In this document: positions 13,463 through 24,804 of the stretch, one piece after another | Layout of the letters: the number at the start of each line of letters is the position of its first letter | Position numbering within the stretch: the stretch's first letter is position 1 | IMG/VR virus record: IMGVR_UViG_3300046476_000017 | Span: 1-28,020 of that record | From: a virus | DNA: 28,020 bases | Strand: one strand, 5' to 3' | Program-made: the position numbers and the translations under genes | The notes under the pieces: model-generated | Told to the model about the DNA's origin: nothing | Seen by the model: the letters and a program-made list of their open reading frames with translations, nothing else | Database searches by the model: none

Positions 13463-14382
13463 TGACAACGTACCTGATCCACAAGGCTGTCGAGTTCGAT
13501 GCGATGACCGCCAAGGCGAAGAAGCTCCTCGGCGTCAGCACCGTCGAAGAACTCGCTGCGATCTACGACATGCAGCACAAGTATGACGGCTGCAACGCAA
13601 TCGTCCAGCTACCCGGTATCAGCAGCGACCCACTCGTGCATAGCCGCACCGGCGAACTCGTGACCTCCTGCCAACACATCGGGCGCTCGCTCCGCATGCT
13701 GCTCCAGACCCGCCTGCTGCGCGGTGAGCGCTTCGTGGTGCTGGGCGAGGTGTGGCACCACCGGCAACAGCAGCGCAAGACGAACGGCGACTTCCGCCGT
13801 GCCGATCCCTCTCCGCACCTTCAGTTCGCAGCGTTCGATCTTCTGACGATGGAGGAGTTCGAAGCCGGGCACAGCGACCGCCCGTACAAGGAGCGCTACT
13901 CAGTCCTGCACTCGTACCTGCGCGGCTTCACCACGACCGACTGCGTGTTCCTCGCGGCGACGTATCACGCCGGGACGTACCCGAGCAGCGTGCGGGTTGG
14001 CGCTAAGGAACTCGTGTCGCGTGGCGGCTATGACGGGCTGATCCTCCGCGACCCGCGTGCTGGCTGGACGGCTGGCTCCGGCAGCAACGGCGAGATCGTG
14101 AAGGTGAAGGACGAGGTGAGCTTCGACTTGCTCGTCACTGGCGTTGAGGAAGGCAAGGGAAAGCTCGCAGGCCACGCAGGAAAGCTGGTCTGCACGTTCA
14201 AGGACGGCACGGTCATCAAGGTGGCTGGCGGCACGTACGCCGACCGCAAGGCGTGGTTCGAAGACCCGGCGCTGATCGTGGGAAAGATCGTAAAGGTTGA
14301 GGCTCTGGAGCGGTTCCCGAACGGGCAACTGCGTGAGCCTCGCATGACTGAAGTACGCACCGACAAGGAGACGCACGACTAA
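13462..14382 (+). CDS. ATP-dependent DNA ligase
   Basis: This 306-residue enzyme seals nicks left by primer removal and repair. The adenylated lysine is Lys40 in HKYDGCNA (motif I, K-x-D-G). Motif Ia is seen in HSRTGEL (residues 61-67), the glutamate-containing stretch in VVLGEVWH (motif III region), the FAAFDLL strand after it, motif IV in GGYDGLILRDP and motif V in GEIVKVKDEVSFD. The C-terminal ~85 residues (LLVTGVEEGKGKLAGHAGKL onward) are an OB fold, ending with VKVEALERFPNGQLREPRM. Size is close to T7 ligase (359) minus some loops. Motif I has Asn where Arg is usual (KxDGxR) and motif IV has Asp for the usual Glu. The start overlaps the previous stop. Confidence 0.92.
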   Translation: MTTYLIHKAVEFDAMTAKAKKLLGVSTVEELAAIYDMQHKYDGCNAIVQLPGISSDPLVHSRTGELVTSCQHIGRSLRMLLQTRLLRGERFVVLGEVWHHRQQQRKTNGDFRRADPSPHLQFAAFDLLTMEEFEAGHSDRPYKERYSVLHSYLRGFTTTDCVFLAATYHAGTYPSSVRVGAKELVSRGGYDGLILRDPRAGWTAGSGSNGEIVKVKDEVSFDLLVTGVEEGKGKLAGHAGKLVCTFKDGTVIKVAGGTYADRKAWFEDPALIVGKIVKVEALERFPNGQLREPRMTEVRTDKETHD

Positions 14383-16844
14383 TGAATCAAGCAGCAGCAA
14401 GGACTCAGATCGAGCTGGAAATTGAAACCCGCGCAGCAGGCCGCGAACGTGCCGTGCAGATGATGGATAAGCGGGAGCGTGAAGGACACGCCGATACGAA
14501 CCCCTACGCTGCTGCGATCTTCCGACGCTGGCTCCTTCCGCTGGCCGAGGTGCTGGAGGCCGAGGTGCAGACACTCGGTAAGCCCGGTCGCCGTGCAGCG
14601 CACGTTGCGCTTCTGAAGCCGCTCGACGCTCGGGCTGTCGCCTACATCGCGGTGCGCGCCACGCTCGTGCAACTCCTCAAGGGCGACAACAACACCCGCT
14701 CGCTGGCCCGCCTCATTGGCAAGGACGTGTACGACGAACTCGTACTCGCCACGTTCGAACACATCAAGCCCGACCTGTTCTGGCAGATCAGCCACGACCT
14801 TGACCGCAAGCGCAGCAAGTCTACCCGCCACCGCGTCAGCGCCATGCAGGGCTCGATCCGCAACGCAGAGGTCGAGGTTCCGGTATGGCAGACCGCAGAC
14901 CGCGAGCAGGTAGGCATGTTCCTGATCGAGCAGCTACGCCTCCTAGGCATGGTGGAGGTAGGCCGCAAGATCATCAAGATGGGCAAGAAGATGACGACCG
15001 AGTTCGATGTGACGCTCAGTGACGCGGCTGCATCGGTGGTGGACAAGATTCGCCACACGGTCGAGTTGACCATGCCCTTCAGCCTGCCGTTCATCGAGCC
15101 ACCGAAGCCGTGGACTTCCCTGAATGAGGGCGGGTATCACACGACCGCTATGCGCCGCCTCATGCCGTACTGCGTGAACATGACAAGGGCAGGTAGCGTC
15201 GCGGTCATCGAGGCCGTCCAAGAGGCTCCTATGCCTTCTGTGTTCAAGGCGATCAATGCGTTGCAGGCTGTGCGCTGGCAGATCAATGGCGACTTGCTGC
15301 GCGCAGTCACCGAGCTTGCGAAGCGTGGCATCGACATGGACGAGATCATTACCCACGCCGAGATTCCGAAGCCGGAAGCACCGGAGTGGCTGGTGCCGGA
15401 ACTGACGAAGGAGCAGATGGAGCCGCAGCAGCTAGACGAGTTCACTCGCTGGAAGCGTCAGGTTGCGGAGTGGCACACCCAGCGCAAGCTGCGCGGCACG
15501 AAGTGGGGCCGGTTCTACACGGCGACGCGGACGGCGAACAAGTTCGCTCAGTACCCCGCGATCTACTTCCTGTATCAGGCCGACTTCCGAGGCCGACTGT
15601 ACGCACAGTCGAACGGTGTATCACCGCAGGGCAGCGACCTTCAGAAGGCGCTCCTGCGCTTCGCAGATGGTAAGCCGTTGGACACGCCGAAGGCTGTCGA
15701 GTGGTTCAAGATAAACGGCGCTAATCGCTACGGCATCGACAAGGTGACCTTCGAGGAACGCATCAAATGGGTAGAAGAGAATGACCAATTCATCATCGAG
15801 TGGGGAACTGATCCCGTCGCGCACACAGGCTGGTCAACAGCGGACAGCCCCCTTCAATTTCTTGCGTGGGCAATCGAATACGCTCAGTGGAGAGCAGCGC
15901 CAAGCACTTTCACTTCTCGAATCCCGGTTGGGCTCGACGGTAGTTGCAATGGCCTACAGCACTTCTCGGCAATGCTGCGAGATTCTGTCGGAGGACGGGC
16001 GACTAACCTCGTACCGGGTGTAAAGCCGAACGACATTTATCAGCAGGTTGCTGACGTAGTGGGGCTGAAACTAGCCGACCTGAAACAGGATCAGGTAACC
16101 GAGCGCGATTGGAGTTTCTGCCAGCGGTGGATTGCACACGGAATGAACCGGACGATTGTTAAGCGCTCGGTCATGACGTTGCCTTATGGCTCCACTCGCT
16201 TCTCTTGTGCTGACTTCATCCATAAGGACTACTTACAGCAGGGGAAGGCTGACGAGTTCGAGAAGTCGGAGTATCCGTTCGCTTCGAACTTCCTGTCTCA
16301 CCTTGTATGGGATGCGATTGGTCAGGTTGTTATCGCCGCGTCTGAAGCTATGAGTTGGTTGCAGAAGTGTGCGAACACCCTAATTAAAAGCGGCCAGCCA
16401 CAGATCGGTTGGGTTGCTCCTAGCGGGTTCCATGTCGTTCAGCACTATAACGAGATTGAGCTTACACACGTACGGTCACTGTTACTGGGTGGGGTGCGTA
16501 TCAGGGTGGGTATGGAGGGTGACGATCCTAGTGCTAACCGGCATAAGAACGGGATTGCTCCTAACTTCGTACACAGCATGGATGCTTCTCACTTGACGAT
16601 GACTGTATGTGATTGCGAGGACGAGGGTATCAGTTCACTGGCGATGATCCACGACGATTACGGTACGCATGCGGCTGACACTCAGCGGCTGTACGAGTTG
16701 ATCCGAGAAAACTTTGTGAGGATGTATGAGACGTTCAATCCGTTGCGTGATTTCAGCAATAGCTACAGCGGCCTGCCTGCGCTACCCAAAAGCGGTGACT
16801 TGGATTTGCGCCAAGTTCTCACCAGCAAATTCTTCTTTGCATGA
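14382..16844 (+). CDS. Single-subunit T7-type RNA polymerase
   Basis: This 820-residue enzyme transcribes the phage late genes from its own promoters. Landmarks, in order: FRGRLYAQSNGVSPQG (the D-x-x-G-R region), GLDGSCNGLQHFSAMLRD with catalytic Asp519, VKRSVMTLPYG with Lys594 and Tyr602, APNFVHSMDASHL, and MIHDDYGTHA with catalytic Asp758. The chain ends in Phe-Phe-Ala, like the conserved Phe-Ala-Phe-Ala end of T7 RNAP. It is about 60 residues shorter than the T7 enzyme, mostly before the core. The gene is placed after ligase and before the virion genes, as in phiKMV. From about base 15700 the sequence becomes less GC-rich with more T-ending codons than the first half. The ATG overlaps the ligase stop. 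Confidence 0.97.
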   Translation: MNQAAARTQIELEIETRAAGRERAVQMMDKREREGHADTNPYAAAIFRRWLLPLAEVLEAEVQTLGKPGRRAAHVALLKPLDARAVAYIAVRATLVQLLKGDNNTRSLARLIGKDVYDELVLATFEHIKPDLFWQISHDLDRKRSKSTRHRVSAMQGSIRNAEVEVPVWQTADREQVGMFLIEQLRLLGMVEVGRKIIKMGKKMTTEFDVTLSDAAASVVDKIRHTVELTMPFSLPFIEPPKPWTSLNEGGYHTTAMRRLMPYCVNMTRAGSVAVIEAVQEAPMPSVFKAINALQAVRWQINGDLLRAVTELAKRGIDMDEIITHAEIPKPEAPEWLVPELTKEQMEPQQLDEFTRWKRQVAEWHTQRKLRGTKWGRFYTATRTANKFAQYPAIYFLYQADFRGRLYAQSNGVSPQGSDLQKALLRFADGKPLDTPKAVEWFKINGANRYGIDKVTFEERIKWVEENDQFIIEWGTDPVAHTGWSTADSPLQFLAWAIEYAQWRAAPSTFTSRIPVGLDGSCNGLQHFSAMLRDSVGGRATNLVPGVKPNDIYQQVADVVGLKLADLKQDQVTERDWSFCQRWIAHGMNRTIVKRSVMTLPYGSTRFSCADFIHKDYLQQGKADEFEKSEYPFASNFLSHLVWDAIGQVVIAASEAMSWLQKCANTLIKSGQPQIGWVAPSGFHVVQHYNEIELTHVRSLLLGGVRIRVGMEGDDPSANRHKNGIAPNFVHSMDASHLTMTVCDCEDEGISSLAMIHDDYGTHAADTQRLYELIRENFVRMYETFNPLRDFSNSYSGLPALPKSGDLDLRQVLTSKFFFA

Positions 16845-16872
16845 TGTATGTCTTCCGAGCGAACCGAATTCG

Positions 16873-16902
16873 ATTACGGTCAACTCGGAAGACACCGAAA
16901 CG
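16873..16902 (+). promoter_or_regulatory. Probable phage RNA polymerase promoter, copy 1
   Basis: This 30-base element starts 28 bases after the RNA polymerase stop and ends just before the GGAG of the next gene. It is identical at 28 of 30 positions to 20434-20463. The core shared block begins CGGTCAACTCGGAAGACAC, and the two differences are at 16876 (A versus T) and 16896 (C versus A). Length, orientation, intergenic location and proximity to the polymerase gene fit a T7-type promoter of about 23 bases. The sequence itself does not resemble the T7 consensus. Transcription would cover the genes up to the terminator at 20399-20430. Confidence 0.75.
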
Positions 16903-16911
16903 GAGCAACCA

Positions 16912-17082
16912 TTGAAAGAGCAGATTCTTATTCGACTCGACCCGGACGCATACGCCCGGCTGGAGCGGGAACTCACACCGCCGGTAGTCACCAATCAAAC
17001 CACGGACCTCATGGCCGGGTATCAACTTGGCGTGCAGGAGGTACTGAAGAAGCTGCGGTCAGGCTATGTCATTGAACGTTAA
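16912..17082 (+). CDS. Small conserved-looking phage protein, 56 residues
   Basis: TTG at 16912 is chosen because GGAG at 16902-16905 lies six bases upstream. The frame extends back into the RNA polymerase gene, but that part would run through the promoter. The protein begins KEQILIRLDPDAYARLEREL and ends TDLMAGYQLGVQEVLKKLRS plus a short tail. The arrangement of one helix, a Pro-Pro turn and a second helix with 'AGYQLGVQ' resembles short proteins found next to the virion genes of several podophages. That resemblance is from memory. No function is known to me. It is the first gene behind the late promoter, so it should be made in quantity. Confidence 0.6.
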   Translation: MKEQILIRLDPDAYARLERELTPPVVTNQTTDLMAGYQLGVQEVLKKLRSGYVIER

Positions 17083-17503
17083 AGCCCGCAAGGACTTCAC
17101 GCACGATGACTGGCTCGCCATAGAGCGTGCTGTGTACGGGGTGAAGTTCCCGGACAAGTCGTGGCACCGGACGGTGAGCCTAGGCAAGGTCTTCTATGAG
17201 ATCGCCAACGGCAGTGACTTCGAGGTGCTGCTAGTTAGCGGCTACCTCCTCGCGTATCAGATCGGTGCGCCGTGGTACTCGGACGGTGACGTGTTCTACG
17301 AGCAACTGCTCCTCAAGGTTGACCCAGCAGCACATAGCATCAGACCCGTACTCAGAGCGATGGAGAACATCGCACGCGGTGCGGGCTGCGTCGGAATAGC
17401 GGTGGGCACCGCCCTAAACTCCTCCGACGAGCGCTTGGCTCGGGTCTATCACCGTGCTGGTTACAGCACCCAAGCCCACGCACTCTACAAGGAACTCACA
17501 TGA
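17066..17503 (+). CDS. GNAT-like acetyltransferase fold protein
   Basis: ATG at 17066 overlaps the previous gene by 17 bases and gives 145 residues. The alternation of strands and helices and the C-terminal part (CVGIAVGTALNSSDERLARV then YHRAGYSTQAHALYKEL) match the end of the GNAT fold, where a helix is followed by 'Y..aGf....h.y.k.l'. The middle (FEVLLVSGYLLAYQIGAPW, then FYEQLLLKVDP) fits the central strands. The acetyl-CoA loop (usually Q/R-x-x-G-x-G/A) is not clear, RGAGCVG being the nearest candidate, so the protein may not be an active enzyme. Such proteins occur before the portal gene in several podophages. Whether it modifies host or virion proteins is open. Confidence 0.6.
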   Translation: MSLNVKARKDFTHDDWLAIERAVYGVKFPDKSWHRTVSLGKVFYEIANGSDFEVLLVSGYLLAYQIGAPWYSDGDVFYEQLLLKVDPAAHSIRPVLRAMENIARGAGCVGIAVGTALNSSDERLARVYHRAGYSTQAHALYKELT

Positions 17504-17970
17504 GCGGCCTCATTAAGTCAGTCGTAAAACTTGCGAAGAAGTTCGCAGACCCCGTTAAGCTCGCCACAGGCTTCGACGCAACCAAGGAGGTAGGCGCAGC
17601 AGTCGGCGGCGTACTCGGCACCACGGCGGTAGCCGATGCCACCACAGCCGCAGCGCAGCAGCAGGCCGACGCCGTGAATGCGGCAGCAGCCCAGCAAGCG
17701 CAGCAGGCCACGGACGCGGCGAACGCACAGAAGGTCAACATCAACAACCAAGCAGCCGCAGCCGCACAGGCGCAGCAGGCCGCGATCAACCAGTCGGCAC
17801 TCGCCGCGCAGATCGCCAATACGACGCCGCCTGCCGAGAAGGCAGCAAGCGTGGACCTGAGCGGTAACGGCGCAGCAGCCGACTCCTCGGACCCGCGACG
17901 CCGCTATCAGGTGGGCGCGGCATCGAGCGCCGGTGCTTCGAGCGGCGGCGTAGGGATCAAGCTGTCGTAA
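17500..17970 (+). CDS. gp7.3-like virion/tail assembly protein (putative)
   Basis: ATG at 17500 overlaps the preceding stop and gives 156 residues. The first 30 are basic (MSGLIKSVVKLAKKFADPVK). Residues 45-110 are nearly all Ala, Gln and Asn in a long helix-like run. The end is RRRYQVG, then Ala/Ser-rich sequence, then SSGGVGIKLS. T7 gp7.3, directly before the portal gene, has the same plan: a Lys/Val-rich start with 'PVK', an Ala/Gln region, and an end in Arg/Lys, Ser-Ser-Gly-Gly-Gly-Ile. In T7 this small protein is needed for tail assembly and is ejected with the DNA. The match is in design and position, not in extended identity. Confidence 0.6.
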   Translation: MSGLIKSVVKLAKKFADPVKLATGFDATKEVGAAVGGVLGTTAVADATTAAAQQQADAVNAAAAQQAQQATDAANAQKVNINNQAAAAAQAQQAAINQSALAAQIANTTPPAEKAASVDLSGNGAAADSSDPRRRYQVGAASSAGASSGGVGIKLS

Positions 17971-17971
17971 C

Positions 17972-19534
17972 TTGAACTTCACTGCGGAGCAAGCATGGGA
18001 AGCAGGGGCGCGCAAGCGACAACCTCTGCTGACCCGATGCGAAAAGTACGCGGCGTTCACCCTTCCAACAATTTGCACGCCTCCCGGATACAACGAGGAG
18101 GCTGAGGAGCTACAGACCGATTACCAATCGGTAGGCGCGCAAGCCGTCAACAACCTTGCGAACAAACTCATGCTCGCGCTGTTCGCGCCGTCTCGTCCGT
18201 TCTTCCGGCTTCAGGTGGCGTCCGCGCTGCTCCAGAAGCTCATGCAGAAGCTCAACCTCGACGCAGGCGGTGTCCAGCAGATGCTGTCCACTGCGGAAAT
18301 GAACTGCATCAAGACGCTCGATCAGATGGGCGTACGCCCGAAACTGTACGAGGCTGTGAAGCACCTCATTATCACAGGCAACTGCATGCTGATCCTAGGC
18401 CAGAAGCCGAACGATCCGCCGATGCGTGTGCTGGGGTTGAAGCGGTTCACGGTCAAGCGCTCCATGAGCGGCAAGCTGATCGAGACAGTCATCCACGAGA
18501 AGGTCCGGTTCGATGAACTGGAGTCGGACGTGCAGAAGCACCTCAAGGATCAGCACCCGCAGAAGTACGGAAACATGGACCCGGCTGATCCGCAGTCGTG
18601 CCACGAGGTCAAGTACTTCACGTGGGTCAAGTGGGACGGTGCGGCGAACTATCTCGTCACACACCATGTTGACGACATCGACCTAGCCGACAAGTACAAC
18701 GGCAAGTACACGGACGACACACTCCCGTACCGACCGCTGACGTGGGAACTGCACGACGACAACAACTACGGCACTGGCCTAGTGGAGCAGAACGCTGGCG
18801 ACTTCGCCTCGCTCTCCGTCCTGTCTGAGGCAGAGGTCAAGGGCGCGATCCTCGCGTCGGAGTTCCGCTGGCTGGTCAACCCGGCTGGTCAGACTCACCC
18901 GGAGGACGTTGAGGCGTCGGAGAACGGCGCAGCGCTACCCGGCATGAAGGACGACATCGTACCGCTGAACTCTGGCACCGGCCAGAACATGCAGTACATC
19001 GACACCGTGGCTACCAAGTACGTGAACCGCATCGGTCGGGTCTTCCTGATCGGCAGTGCGGTAGTGCGCGACGCGGAGCGGGTCACGGCTGAAGAAGTCC
19101 GCATGCAGGCGAACGAGTTGGAAACGTCGCTGGGTGGTGTGTACTCACGCCTCGCGGTGGACTTCCAATTGCCTATGGCCTTCTGGCTGGTCAAGCGCAC
19201 CGGAGTTGACCTCGGCGGGACGCAGATCACCCCGATGGTCATTACCGGGCTCGACGCACTCTCCCGCAACGGTGACCTCGACAACCTGAAGCTCTGCCTT
19301 CAAGACCTCGCCGCAGTAAGCGGTATGCCTCCACAAGCCCTCGCTGTGCTGAACCTCGACGCAATCGCCAAGGCGATCTTCGCGGGTCGCGGCGTTGACT
19401 ACTCGCAGTACGTCAAGACAGCCGATCAGCAGAAGGCCGACATGGAGAACGCACAACAAGCAGCGCTGGCGCAGCAGGTAGCACGCCCAGTCGCATCAGC
19501 CGTCATGAGCGGCCAACCTAATCAAGGACAGTAA
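17972..19534 (+). CDS. Portal (head-tail connector) protein, T7 gp8 type
   Basis: This 520-residue protein is close to T7 gp8 (536) and would form the ring through which DNA is packaged and released. It begins FTAEQAWEAGARKRQPLL, includes ANKLMLALFAPSRPFFRLQV in the first hundred residues, and has the mid-part RVTAEEVRMQANELETSLGG, a typical piece of gp8-type portals. The C-terminus is Gln/Ala-rich (NAQQAALAQQVARPVAS). The start is TTG at 17972, one base after the previous stop. No other start lies before the conserved part, and no strong ribosome site is seen, so coupling to the gene before it is likely. Its TAA overlaps the scaffold ATG. Confidence 0.93.
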   Translation: MNFTAEQAWEAGARKRQPLLTRCEKYAAFTLPTICTPPGYNEEAEELQTDYQSVGAQAVNNLANKLMLALFAPSRPFFRLQVASALLQKLMQKLNLDAGGVQQMLSTAEMNCIKTLDQMGVRPKLYEAVKHLIITGNCMLILGQKPNDPPMRVLGLKRFTVKRSMSGKLIETVIHEKVRFDELESDVQKHLKDQHPQKYGNMDPADPQSCHEVKYFTWVKWDGAANYLVTHHVDDIDLADKYNGKYTDDTLPYRPLTWELHDDNNYGTGLVEQNAGDFASLSVLSEAEVKGAILASEFRWLVNPAGQTHPEDVEASENGAALPGMKDDIVPLNSGTGQNMQYIDTVATKYVNRIGRVFLIGSAVVRDAERVTAEEVRMQANELETSLGGVYSRLAVDFQLPMAFWLVKRTGVDLGGTQITPMVITGLDALSRNGDLDNLKLCLQDLAAVSGMPPQALAVLNLDAIAKAIFAGRGVDYSQYVKTADQQKADMENAQQAALAQQVARPVASAVMSGQPNQGQ

Positions 19535-20373
19535 TGAGCGAACAAACCGCAGCAGTAGCAGCAGCATCGGCAACCGTAGCACCGGCGCAAGTAGCCTCCC
19601 CCGCACAAGAAGCAGTAACGCCTGCGGTCGAAGCAGGCAACCAGCCCGAAGCCAAGGTTGCGCTCCCGCTTGCCTCGGAGGCTGTAACGCCCGAGCAGGC
19701 AGCGGAGCGGGCACAGGCCGCTGAGCTTGAGAAGGGCGGCTGGGTCGATCCGAGCAAGGGTGCCGTGTCCTTCGAGAAGACGGGCGACGCGGGCCTCGAC
19801 GTGGCGCTCGACTTCATCGGGCGCGCTGGCTTCACCGCCAATCACCCGGCAGTACAGGCAGCAGCACAGGGCGATTTCAGCCTGCTGGCGGCTGCGCTGG
19901 CAGAGAAGGGTGTGACGGGCTGGGAACAGCACCTGAACCTCGCCAAGGAGGCGCAGGGCCGCTTCGCTGAGCAAGAGAAGGCCAAGTCCGCTGCGATCTA
20001 CGACGCCTGCCTGCACGCTGCGGGCGGCGACGAGAAGGTGTGGGCCGAAACCCTCGAATGGGCCAGCGCCAATGCCGAGCCTGCTGAGAAGGAAGCGATC
20101 AACACAGCGCTCGCCAGTGGCGGTGTGCTGGCAGAGGCGGTGTCGCAGTGGCTGGTGAACAGCTATCGCGGCGCGCCGGGCGTGACCATCAGCCCGCAGG
20201 CATCGGCAGTCAACGCAGCCGTGGTGGCAGGAGCAGGCGCGGCGGCTGGCAACGGCCCGCTGAGTCCCGCTGAGTACGCCCGCGAAGTCGCCAAGATTCG
20301 CCAGCAAGGCAGCATCGAAGGTAGCCGTGAGTACGCCGCACTACAAGCGCGCCGTGCCATGTACCGAGGCTAA
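19534..20373 (+). CDS. Capsid assembly scaffolding protein, T7 gp9 type
   Basis: This 279-residue protein lies between portal and major capsid genes, the fixed position of the scaffold in T7-like phages (T7 gp9 is 307). The first 70 residues are low-complexity Ala, Pro, Glu and Val. The middle holds WVDPSKGAVSFEKTGDAGLD and DFIGRAGFTANHPAVQAA, typical of podophage scaffolds. The C-terminus is a helix-turn-helix rich in basic and Ala residues (PAEYAREVAKIRQQGSIEG, then REYAALQARRAMYRG), the part that usually docks on the capsid. It is mostly acidic and helical and is expected to leave the shell during maturation. ATG at 19534 overlaps the portal stop. A terminator follows 25 bases after its TAA. 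Confidence 0.88.
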   Translation: MSEQTAAVAAASATVAPAQVASPAQEAVTPAVEAGNQPEAKVALPLASEAVTPEQAAERAQAAELEKGGWVDPSKGAVSFEKTGDAGLDVALDFIGRAGFTANHPAVQAAAQGDFSLLAAALAEKGVTGWEQHLNLAKEAQGRFAEQEKAKSAAIYDACLHAAGGDEKVWAETLEWASANAEPAEKEAINTALASGGVLAEAVSQWLVNSYRGAPGVTISPQASAVNAAVVAGAGAAAGNGPLSPAEYAREVAKIRQQGSIEGSREYAALQARRAMYRG

Positions 20374-20398
20374 GCCTCACCCGCTGTAACCCCGCAGA

Positions 20399-20430
20399 GG
20401 CCCGTCCAGCAAACCGCTGGCGGGCCTTTT
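20399..20430 (+). terminator. Intrinsic terminator after the scaffold gene
   Basis: GGCCCG (20399-20404) pairs with CGGGCC (20421-20426) and CCAGC (20406-20410) with GCTGG (20416-20420), with one unpaired T in the left arm and a five-base loop. TTTT follows. This is a strong, textbook hairpin with a T run, eight bases before the shared TTTCGG of promoter copy 2. Confidence 0.88.
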
Positions 20431-20433
20431 CTC

Positions 20434-20463
20434 ATTTCGGTCAACTCGGAAGACACAGAAACG
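20434..20463 (+). promoter_or_regulatory. Probable phage RNA polymerase promoter, copy 2 (capsid promoter)
   Basis: The 30 bases match 16873-16902 at 28 positions on the same strand. It lies directly behind a terminator and 44 bases before the major capsid ATG. Placed so, it would restart transcription for the most abundant virion protein. Confidence 0.78.
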
Positions 20464-20507
20464 TGTCATTGGCCAATCACACAATTTCACAATAAGGAAT
20501 CCTACAC
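20464..20507 (+). promoter_or_regulatory. AT-rich capsid leader with palindrome and ribosome site
   Basis: The leader of the capsid message holds a perfect ten-base palindrome ATTGGCCAAT (20468-20477), an AT-rich stretch (20478-20495) and AAGGAA at 20494-20499, eight bases before the ATG. In this GC-rich genome the low-structure stretch is unusual and should keep the ribosome site open. The phrase TACACATG at its end recalls the leaders at 2940-2951 and 8832-8839. Confidence 0.5.
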
Positions 20508-21521
20508 ATGGGTCTGTCTTACACGAACGTCAACCGTCCGGGCGCAGCGCTTCAGACTGGCAACAACGCACAGATCGGCGCAGCACCGTCCGCAACGAAC
20601 CCGCTGGCGCTCCACATTGAGGAGTACGGCGGCGTTGTGGAACACACGCTGGCTCGCCGCTCCATCATCCGTAACTTCGTCCCGGTTCGCCCGGTGAAGG
20701 GTACGTCCACGATCACGAACTTCCAAGTCGGTCAATCGACCCTCTCGAAGGTCACGCCGGGTACTGAACCCGATGCGAACGTGGTGCAGGCACAGAAGGT
20801 CAAGCTGACAATCGACACGCTGGTGAATGCCCGCGCTGTCGTGCCGCTGCTGGACGACTTCCAAAGCTCGTACGACGCACGCGCCGCAATCGGTACGGAA
20901 CACGGTATCGCAATCTCGAAGTTCTTCGACCAAGCGTTCTTCATCCAAGCGATCAAGGCCGCAGGCATCACCGACATGTCGCAGTACCCGAGCGGCTGGC
21001 AACCGGGCACGACCACGACCTTCGCCGCTGTTGGCGATGAACTCGATCCGGTCAAGCTCGAAGGCAAGCTCCTCGACATGTTCGCCGCGATGGCCGACAA
21101 GGACGTGGACCCGCACGACGATGGTCTCGTCATCGTGACGAAGCCGAAGTACTTCTACACGCTGCTCCAGAACAACCGCCTGATCGACCGCGAACTCCTT
21201 ACGAGCGACGGTACGACGATCAAGACGAAGGCGATCTCGGCTGCTGGCGTGCCGATCTACTTCTCGAACAACGTTCCGACTACCAACGTGACGGGTCACT
21301 ACCTGTCGAACGCTGGTAACGGCGCTGCGTATGACGGTGACTTCTCGAAGACCATCGCATCGGTGTTCTCGCCGCGTGCGCTGCTCGCCGGTGAAACCAT
21401 CCCGCTGACTTCGGAGGTCTTCTACGATCAGAAGTCGAAGATGTGGTTCATCGACGCACACCTCTCGTTCGGTGTCGCTCCGAACAACCCGGCATTCGCC
21501 GGTGTCCTGAAGTCGGCTTAA
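20508..21521 (+). CDS. Major capsid protein, T7 gp10 type
   Basis: The protein has 337 residues, very near T7 gp10A (345), and would form the icosahedral shell with the HK97 fold. It starts GLSYTNVNRPGAALQTGNN, followed by EEYGGVVEHTLARRSIIRNF, and then the long beta/helix backbone (FDQAFFIQAIKAAGITD, DKDVDPHDDGLVIVTKPKYF, ALLAGETIPLTSEVFYDQ). Codon use is the most biased of the window, with uniform CTG, GTC, ACG, AAG, as expected for a highly expressed gene. The gene has its own promoter and a terminator on each side. Unlike T7 there is no visible 10B-like frameshift extension. The terminator begins 13 bases after the stop. Confidence 0.95.
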   Translation: MGLSYTNVNRPGAALQTGNNAQIGAAPSATNPLALHIEEYGGVVEHTLARRSIIRNFVPVRPVKGTSTITNFQVGQSTLSKVTPGTEPDANVVQAQKVKLTIDTLVNARAVVPLLDDFQSSYDARAAIGTEHGIAISKFFDQAFFIQAIKAAGITDMSQYPSGWQPGTTTTFAAVGDELDPVKLEGKLLDMFAAMADKDVDPHDDGLVIVTKPKYFYTLLQNNRLIDRELLTSDGTTIKTKAISAAGVPIYFSNNVPTTNVTGHYLSNAGNGAAYDGDFSKTIASVFSPRALLAGETIPLTSEVFYDQKSKMWFIDAHLSFGVAPNNPAFAGVLKSA

Positions 21522-22194: not shown

Positions 22195-24804
22195 ATGGGT
22201 AAGGTAGTGGGAAGTTACGCCTCGGTCACGCGGGGAGTCTCGGAGCAGGTTCCGCAGGAGCGGCATCCGGGGCAAATGTGGGAACAGGTGAACATGCTGT
22301 CGGACCCGGTTGTGGGCCTCGCCCGCCGTCCCGGTTCCGTATGGCTCGCAGAGACGGACGCGACGACCAGCGCGACACTGACACCGCAGACTCTCGCGGA
22401 CCTGACGAACTACCGGGAATACACGTTCTTCGTGCGCGGCAAGGAGTACTGCCTGCTGTACCAAGTCACACCGTCAGTGGCCGGCGATCAAATGTCGTCC
22501 CTGTTCGTGCTGAACAAGGATGACTCGAAGTTCCTCAACGTAGTCAACCCGAACCCAACGTTCACCGCGCCGTGGCTCACAGGTGGTATCTCGGCTGTCA
22601 CAACGGTCGGGGACTACGTGTGCATGGCAGCGCAAGGCATGGGTCCGGGATACAGCACGACTGACCCGTACGCGGCGAGCAACACAGTCGGCGTTGCATG
22701 GGTACGCGGCGGTGCGTACAGCCGCACCTTCACTCTGAGCGTTACGCGCAAGTCCGATGGTCGCGTGTTCGTGGCGACGCGGACGACGCTGGCATCTAGC
22801 TACCCGACCTTGCTGAACACCTCGGACATCCCGCAGTCAGCGACTGACTATCAGAAGCAGGTGAACGACCGTGTGAACGCCTACAACTCGGCGGTCAACG
22901 CATGGATCGGTACGGCAGCGCAGAGCGTGCAGCCGTCAGACATCGCAGCCCAACTCGTGAGCTACCTGCACACGCAGGGCTTCGCAGAGGTCAGTGCGGT
23001 CGGCGGCACCATCACTATCTGGAATGCCAGCGCTATCTCGGCTGAGGACGGCGGCGACGGTACGCTGTTCCGCTCGGTCTTCAATACGGTTGACGACCCG
23101 GCGAAGCTCTCCTCGGTCCACTTGAACGGTAAGGTTGTTCAGGTGCAGAGCAAGGGCGCGGCTCACCCGTACTACATGAAGTTCATCGGGGACGCTGTTA
23201 CAGCAAGCGGCTGGACTACCGGAACGTGGGTTGAGGCACCGGCGCAGATCGTGACTCCGGGGCAGGTACTCATGCTAGGCGGCATCAGCAGCGACGGTAA
23301 CGACTTCGTGATCGGCGCAGCACCGGACCTCAACGCAGCGAAGAACGCGAGCAACGTGTCGTACGGGTTCAATGCCCCCGGCTTCTCCGCGTCACGCTGC
23401 GGCGACCTGAACGCGACCGGCGCTATCCCGTACTTCTTCGGTAAGCAAATCTCGATGCTCACGATGTTTCAAGACCGCTTGGTCATCGTGGCGAACGGGA
23501 CCATCTTCATGTCGAAGGCGGGTGACTACTTCAACTTCTTCCGCGACACGATGCTGTCGGTGCATGACGACGACCCGATTGAGGTGTACGCACTCGGCGC
23601 GGCTGACGATGTGATCTCGCGCTCGGTGACCTTCAACAAAGACTTGTTCATGTTCGGCAAGCGCAACCAGTACGTGATCTCGGGCCGTCAGGTGGCATCG
23701 CCGCAGACGATCTCCGTATCGACCACGGCAGCAGAGCGGGACGCTACGAACGCGCAGCCGGTGACGAACGGGAACCTGATCTTCTACGGCAAGGCGCGAG
23801 ACGCCAGCGATCAGTCGGGCGGCTCACCGTACGCTGGGCAGCTTAACCAGTTCCAGCTAGGGCTGTTCCAAGACACTCCTGAGACGTATCAAATCTCGAA
23901 GCAGTTGGACAAGTACATGCGCGGGCGACCGATTGAACTCGCCGCGCTCTCGGCACCGGCGACGCTGTTCGTGCGAACGGACGGCTACACCTCGGGCTTC
24001 TACGTGTACTCGTACATCGACTCGGCAGGCTCGCAGCAGCGTGCGTGGGACTCGTGGAGCCGGTGGGAAGTCAGCCCGTCGATGGGCACGCTGGTCGGCA
24101 TGACGCCGCACCGGCAGACGCTGATCGCGTTCTTCGTCACTCCCAATGGTGCTGTCGGACACAACACGAAGTACAGCCTCATGGCCGTCAGCTTCAGCCT
24201 CGACGCCAAGCAGTCAGGTACGCCGTACCTAGACGGGCTGCGTCCGCTGAGTCAGGCGACCGGCTCCATCGCGCTCCAGTTCCCTAATCGAGCCACGGCT
24301 TCTATGTGGCCGGACTGCTACGCATCGGTGGATGTGTCGAAGCCTGAGTTCCTGTACCACTCCCCGCTTGCTAACTGGGACGCGTTCGCCGCGCCGTACC
24401 TCGCCAAGGGATACACGACCGCGAACTTTCAGACCGGCTGGGACTACGCCTCGTACGTGACGATCACTGCACCGTACGTGCGCGATCAGAACGACAAGGC
24501 GATCACGACCGGGCGGCTGACTGTCCAGCGCTACGCAGTGTCTGTCACGGACACCGCAGGCATGGACACGGTGCTGACGGCGAGCGGAGTGGACAAGACG
24601 GTGGCGAAGTTCAATGGCCGGATTCTCGGCTGGGATACCGACATGGTGGGCGTACAGCCGGTGGCGACCACAACCATCAGCGTGCCAGCGGGCCGCGCTA
24701 ACACAGAGCATCGTGTCACGTTCAAGTCCCGCACGTGCCTGCCTATGTCGATCTCCGCGATTGAGTGGGTGGGTCAGTTCTTCTCTAACTCTCGGAGGGT
24801 TTAA
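22195..24804 (+). CDS. Tail tubular protein B (gp12 type, nozzle)
   Basis: The protein has 869 residues against 794 in T7 gp12. It would build the hexameric tail nozzle. It begins GKVVGSYASVTRGVSEQVPQ, close to the start of gp12-type proteins, with GLARRPGSVWLAE following. The rest is dominated by beta strands with Gly, Thr, Asp and aromatic residues, including RDTMLSVHDDDPIEVYAL and KRNQYVISGRQ in the middle. The end is a small beta domain (RVTFKSRTCLPMSISAIEW). AAGGAGGT ends two bases before the TAATG-like context and the ATG at 22195, a full match to the anti-Shine-Dalgarno sequence. It is followed within four bases by the next gene. Confidence 0.93.
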   Translation: MGKVVGSYASVTRGVSEQVPQERHPGQMWEQVNMLSDPVVGLARRPGSVWLAETDATTSATLTPQTLADLTNYREYTFFVRGKEYCLLYQVTPSVAGDQMSSLFVLNKDDSKFLNVVNPNPTFTAPWLTGGISAVTTVGDYVCMAAQGMGPGYSTTDPYAASNTVGVAWVRGGAYSRTFTLSVTRKSDGRVFVATRTTLASSYPTLLNTSDIPQSATDYQKQVNDRVNAYNSAVNAWIGTAAQSVQPSDIAAQLVSYLHTQGFAEVSAVGGTITIWNASAISAEDGGDGTLFRSVFNTVDDPAKLSSVHLNGKVVQVQSKGAAHPYYMKFIGDAVTASGWTTGTWVEAPAQIVTPGQVLMLGGISSDGNDFVIGAAPDLNAAKNASNVSYGFNAPGFSASRCGDLNATGAIPYFFGKQISMLTMFQDRLVIVANGTIFMSKAGDYFNFFRDTMLSVHDDDPIEVYALGAADDVISRSVTFNKDLFMFGKRNQYVISGRQVASPQTISVSTTAAERDATNAQPVTNGNLIFYGKARDASDQSGGSPYAGQLNQFQLGLFQDTPETYQISKQLDKYMRGRPIELAALSAPATLFVRTDGYTSGFYVYSYIDSAGSQQRAWDSWSRWEVSPSMGTLVGMTPHRQTLIAFFVTPNGAVGHNTKYSLMAVSFSLDAKQSGTPYLDGLRPLSQATGSIALQFPNRATASMWPDCYASVDVSKPEFLYHSPLANWDAFAAPYLAKGYTTANFQTGWDYASYVTITAPYVRDQNDKAITTGRLTVQRYAVSVTDTAGMDTVLTASGVDKTVAKFNGRILGWDTDMVGVQPVATTTISVPAGRANTEHRVTFKSRTCLPMSISAIEWVGQFFSNSRRV

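Follow-up and report, generated by a model that had tools for sequence, protein, structure and literature searches.

In bacteriophage T7, the region directly behind gene 1 is the primary origin of replication, reportedly the subject of studies by Romano in 1981 and Fuller in 1983 (both cited in PMC5997990), and two promoters of the phage RNA polymerase (RNAP), phi1.1A and phi1.1B, stand there, both facing forward. Burkholderia phage JG068, described as strictly lytic, carries intergenic elements on the gene strand behind the RNAP gene, before the capsid gene, before the tail fibre gene and at the left end, and these sense sites have been predicted as phage promoters with PHIRE (PMC3765740). 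In Aquamicrobium phage P14, the element lies behind the RNAP gene and before the capsid gene, and the element found here contains the promoter predicted for this phage (TTTCGGTACGCTCTAGCA; PMC11475235). LUZ100, like the phage studied here, is a temperate-type member of the Autographiviridae with a promoter set of its own, and the accessible part of its transcription map places antisense RNA downstream of the capsid gene and a special promoter upstream of the RNAP gene (PMC10134795); that same part shows no antisense promoter behind the RNAP gene, and the word antisense is absent from the accessible part of the P14 genome paper (PMC5295034). Indeed, we found no description of antisense or divergent promoters behind the RNAP gene of Autographiviridae in the literature searched, which left out most subscription journals.

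The DNA analysed here (herein the window) is a 28,020-base virus record of an Autographiviridae phage that codes for a T7-type single-subunit RNAP. Over positions 14001-20600 (6.6 kb spanning both of the sense sites described below), it is identical to IMG/VR record G001 (44,031 bases), which was used as a nearly whole genome for the window phage. By tblastn and alignment, the window RNAP shares 63.6% identity with that of Burkholderia phage Paku and 54.7% with that of JG068; a further relative, G002, has 73% RNAP identity, and the comparison set comprised 80 RNAP relatives from viral contigs and one prophage in Achromobacter deleyi. A tyrosine integrase is encoded in G001 (G001:C1:3742-4737, L022; also L003:41344-42378), G002, Paku and L031-L033, and the T7-type clade of the window phage is therefore at least partly temperate. 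The features of the locus, in window coordinates, are as follows:

14382-16844, plus strand: gene for the T7-type single-subunit RNAP (820 aa), identified from tblastn, alignment and specificity-loop residues, whose product presumably recognizes the elements
16848-16870, minus strand: predicted antisense promoter element, AATTCGGTTCGCTCGGAAGACAT, in the gap that separates the RNAP stop (16844) from the sense copy at 16873
16873-16895, plus strand: predicted promoter element in sense orientation, ATTACGGTCAACTCGGAAGACAC, directly after the RNAP gene, with an exact 19-nt core in common with 20438-20456 and syntenic copies in relatives
16912-17082, plus strand: first gene predicted to be served by that sense copy (TTG start, 56 aa), a homologue of Paku gene 34, located by tblastn against G001, which is identical to the window there
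20399-20430, plus strand: intrinsic terminator, GGCCCGTCCAGC-aaacc-GCTGGCGGGCC-TTTT, read directly, just 5' of the predicted capsid promoter and homologous to the Paku terminator annotated at 22855-22886
20434-20456, plus strand: predicted promoter element in sense orientation, ATTTCGGTCAACTCGGAAGACAC, preceding the capsid gene, at the same locus as a PHIRE-predicted JG068 promoter
20508-21521, plus strand: major capsid protein gene, predicted to be served by the second sense copy, 83.4% identical to the Paku capsid protein

The original prediction drew attention to two copies of a 30-base element, which do agree at 28 of 30 positions (ATTACGGTCAACTCGGAAGACACCGAAACG at 16873-16902 and ATTTCGGTCAACTCGGAAGACACAGAAACG at 20434-20463, both on the plus strand). 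Their placement outside genes is also as it described, and both are on the gene strand, the first directly behind RNAP, between its stop (16844) and the next gene (~16912), and the second behind a terminator, between the hairpin at 20399-20430 and the capsid gene at 20508. The length of 30 bases holds for this repeat but not for the element, the core common to all four sense copies in G001 being ~23 nt ([AT]TTWCGGTCARYTCGGAAGACAC) and the 3' GAAACG being present in only two of the four. Similarly, the pair is correct as far as sense copies in the window are concerned, but the minus strand carries a third copy, at 16848-16870, that was overlooked. In a scan of both strands of the window, this antisense copy appears as the next best site (16841-16870, with 10/30 mismatches to the second copy), and all remaining sites on either strand have at least 11/30. 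From the layout of the element, transcription would start near 16891 (the G of GACAC) and 20452 at the two sense copies and near 16852 at the antisense copy.

A scan of G001 with a 23-nt query yielded five matches at up to five mismatches, against a mean of 0.013 for shuffled queries. Four intergenic sense copies lie on the gene strand of G001 before transcription modules: one near the left end, one behind the RNAP gene, and one each ahead of the capsid and tail fibre genes, the last two both standing behind a terminator. Two matches inside the SLT gene (G001 13761 and 13230 (-)) are look-alikes and probably not promoters, being within a coding region, and one of the two has a G002 counterpart. 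The arrangement in which an element behind the RNAP gene recurs ~3.4-4.2 kb on, before the capsid gene, is common among the 80 contig relatives and the Achromobacter prophage. The prophage itself (A. deleyi LMG 3458, NZ_CADIJO010000007.1; L110, L134, L135) has promoter-like copies behind its RNAP gene and before its capsid gene, and another at 99320 that precedes an additional gene. Across nine genomes, 4-6 matches were observed, whereas shuffled queries at the same threshold gave means of 0-0.02.

The sequence of the element changes together with the RNAP while its positions stay constant. Paku, G002, L031-L033, JG068 and others have their own, differing elements at matching positions: ATTTCGGTCAGCCATACAGACAC, or a sequence close to it, at all four sites in G002, ATTTCATGACCCTAAGCAGACAC at the corresponding places in Paku, and ATTTCAGTAGACTATCTAG in JG068, where it contains the PHIRE-predicted promoter and differs in sequence from the window element. 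JG068 also differs in having two extra copies before its DNA polymerase gene, and its published 16-nt consensus (TCAGTAGACTATCTAG) is not matched by the window element, the loci alone being in common. Among the nearest phages, the element is alike at both ends and varies in the middle, a pattern that an AT-rich segment, a specificity segment and a start site would be expected to give. The RNAP has H/R/R/R at the residues aligned with T7 positions 746/748/756/758, compared with R/N/R/Q in T7, which fits the earlier suggestion that this polymerase may have a specificity of its own. Among the aligned RNAPs, those with R746 and N748 mostly go with GGTAC- or AGTAC-type promoters, and the window lineage combines H746 and R748 with GGTCA.

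Taken together, the repeated element is almost certainly the promoter of the phage's own single-subunit RNAP, a reading first put forward in the original prediction and now supported by the syntenic sense copies in relatives and by the PHIRE predictions at the JG068 sites. The accompanying remark that promoters of such phages are few and hard to find is true only in a relative sense, since synteny readily locates them in this clade. The sense copies are thus of a known kind, with published JG068 predictions at the same loci; the new part is the conserved divergent antisense copy.

This copy (16848-16870) and the sense copy at 16873 diverge, the antisense one facing the 3' end of the RNAP gene. 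It has 5/23 mismatches to the sense consensus and is the sole match at that level on the opposite strand of G001. Copies on the other strand had been named in advance as evidence against the promoter reading, and one does exist, yet it belongs to a conserved divergent arrangement. Scans with each phage's own element (G001, Paku, JG068, G006, G007, G008, G016, G025, G033, G035 and, within a 10-kb stretch, P14) found 2-6 copies in sense orientation and, on the opposite strand, a single recognisable copy, always divergent and always right behind the RNAP gene; the antisense copy of G002, read directly and counted with that phage's own consensus, brings the carrier genomes to 12. The same inverted pair stands behind the RNAP gene of contig L030. 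The JG068 copy, at 18804 (-), was seen in this analysis and is absent from the JG068 annotation, and that of P14, a phage whose element is of the GGTAC type, unlike the window sequence, is at 20341 (-). The antisense copies fit worse than the sense copies, with 3-5 mismatches in most genomes, and may therefore be weak promoters; those of G025 and G033, with eight mismatches, are distinguished by their place rather than by score alone.

Most carriers fall into one 12-row clade of the RNAP tree (which does not include P14), and three more carriers, L044, L058 and L077, are on separate branches. Within the main clade, L034 and L074 are without an antisense copy, and in the A. deleyi prophage (L110), sense copies are present but an antisense copy is not recognisable. 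No antisense copy was found behind the RNAP genes of phiKMV, IME-DE1, Cd1, Percy and P26059B, and close copies of the promoter used for the IME-DE1 RNAP all face forward. The antisense copy is present in all six integrase-bearing phage records that include the locus; an integrase as its reason was nevertheless rejected, as JG068, G035 and G016 have the copy and no integrase, and a link to lysogeny fails in general given that the antisense-bearing JG068 is described as strictly lytic. A protein encoded by the antisense transcript was also considered, but only a 7-codon frame directly follows in the window, and nothing persuasive was found.

We hypothesize that the RNAP recognizes all copies and would initiate at each, with +1 near the G of GACAC. 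The sense copies, behind the RNAP gene and before the capsid gene in the window and, beyond it, at the left end and ahead of the tail fibre gene, would start the middle and late transcripts, and the antisense copy, back to back with a sense copy, would start a transcript running backwards into the RNAP gene. Once late transcription has begun, this transcript could restrain RNAP production, both because transcription would run head-on and because the RNA would pair with the RNAP mRNA. That the element is the promoter of the phage's own RNAP, with a divergent antisense copy behind the RNAP gene, is the best explanation of the sequence data and in our judgment a highly probable one. We are similarly confident that the antisense copy is active as a promoter, which is needed whether the pair acts as a brake or as an origin. 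On balance, and with only slight confidence, we favour the view that the conserved divergent pair is one or the other, an antisense brake or a bidirectional origin, across a broad range of phiKMV-like, partly temperate phages, unlike the one-way transcription of the T7 type. Restraint of RNAP expression by the antisense transcript is our first choice between these two, and we give it about an even chance of being correct.

The main rival and second choice, which we consider possible but doubtful, is that the divergent pair is a replication origin at which RNAP transcripts prime leading strands in both directions, much as phi1.1A and phi1.1B serve the primary origin of T7. By sequence, the window has two promoter-like elements directly behind its RNAP gene, exactly where T7 has two promoters, Xanthomonas-type relatives carry two tandem direct copies there, and a divergent pair would suit bidirectional replication. 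However, the T7 primary origin has tandem promoters in the same direction followed by an AT-rich block; the window copies are divergent and not T7-like in sequence, no such block is found, and the ~70-bp gap is not AT-rich. Many relatives also have only one promoter behind RNAP. In Paku, JG068 and the window, third-position GC skew shows no shift at this locus, which weighs little either way. An origin would moreover require both copies to be promoters, and so is compatible with the reading of the element as the phage's own promoter. Separately, contigs L048, L049, L061, L078 and L082 have two tandem direct promoter-like copies ~10-130 bases behind RNAP, resembling phi1.1A/phi1.1B, and the all-one-direction promoter layout of T7 is not found in the window, where one copy behind RNAP is antisense.

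Whether the antisense copy follows the promoter or its neighbour can be assessed by comparing it, within each genome, both with its sense neighbour and with the sense copies further away, which we did for 11 genomes. At the 24 positions where the neighbour deviates from those distant copies, the antisense copy follows the distant copies at 20, the neighbour at two and neither at two; another 37 positions differ in the antisense copy only, and such differences would disrupt or weaken pairing between the arms. Most antisense copies were first found by an inverted-repeat search that ignored the distant copies, so that for these the comparison is not circular, although the related phages compared are not independent. 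The antisense copy thus tracks its own phage's promoter rather than its neighbour, a pattern that favours recognition by the RNAP over a hairpin.

This tracking also weighs against the idea that function is confined to the sense copies, the antisense copy being the decaying remnant of an inverted promoter duplication, which we regard as unlikely. Within a given genome, the antisense copy has usually diverged more than any other, and it is lost or unrecognisable in L110, L034 and L074; nevertheless, it has been kept, and has tracked a changing promoter, in phages on separate tree branches with RNAPs down to ~48-55% identity to that of the window, whereas a remnant would not follow a new specificity, and intergenic space is otherwise scarce. 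Less likely still is that read-through transcripts fold into a hairpin of the two arms, serving as an attenuator or RNase III site behind RNAP, with the left arm resembling the promoter only as a by-product of pairing. The window does contain a perfect 11-bp inverted repeat, its sense strand folds better than shuffled sequences (z = -3.15), and L031 gives z = -4.68, but the Paku region folds no better than shuffles (z = -0.88), the left arms retain the 5' TTTC/TTCGGT block of the promoter, and compensatory change between the arms, which such a structure predicts, accounts for only the two of 24 informative positions noted above. That the repeats are instead host promoters, serve packaging or recombination, or arose by chance is scarcely credible, given the placement of the elements before modules and after terminators, the change of their sequence with the RNAP at constant positions, and the lack of any sigma-70-like site in 12-21 kb of the window, in which Rfam likewise matched no known RNA family.

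If active, the antisense copy would provide, within the literature searched, the first indication that T7-type phages have a conserved antisense promoter directed at the gene for their own RNAP, and it makes RNAP restraint in such phages, several of which carry integrases, directly testable. Promoters of diverged single-subunit RNAPs are also a bottleneck for the use of these enzymes; indeed, ~70% of candidate RNAPs were inactive in one study, in which wrong promoter predictions were suspected (PMC11475235). Synteny across relatives yields the complete element for a dozen RNAPs, among them that of JG068, whose full element, ATTTCAGTAGACTATCTAGGA, is longer than the published 16-nt version. The latter was tested in the same study (PMC11475235) without the 5' ATT and 3' GGA, and their omission might matter for JG068 promoter activity; both are common, in whole or in part, to most JG068 (L004) and G035 copies.
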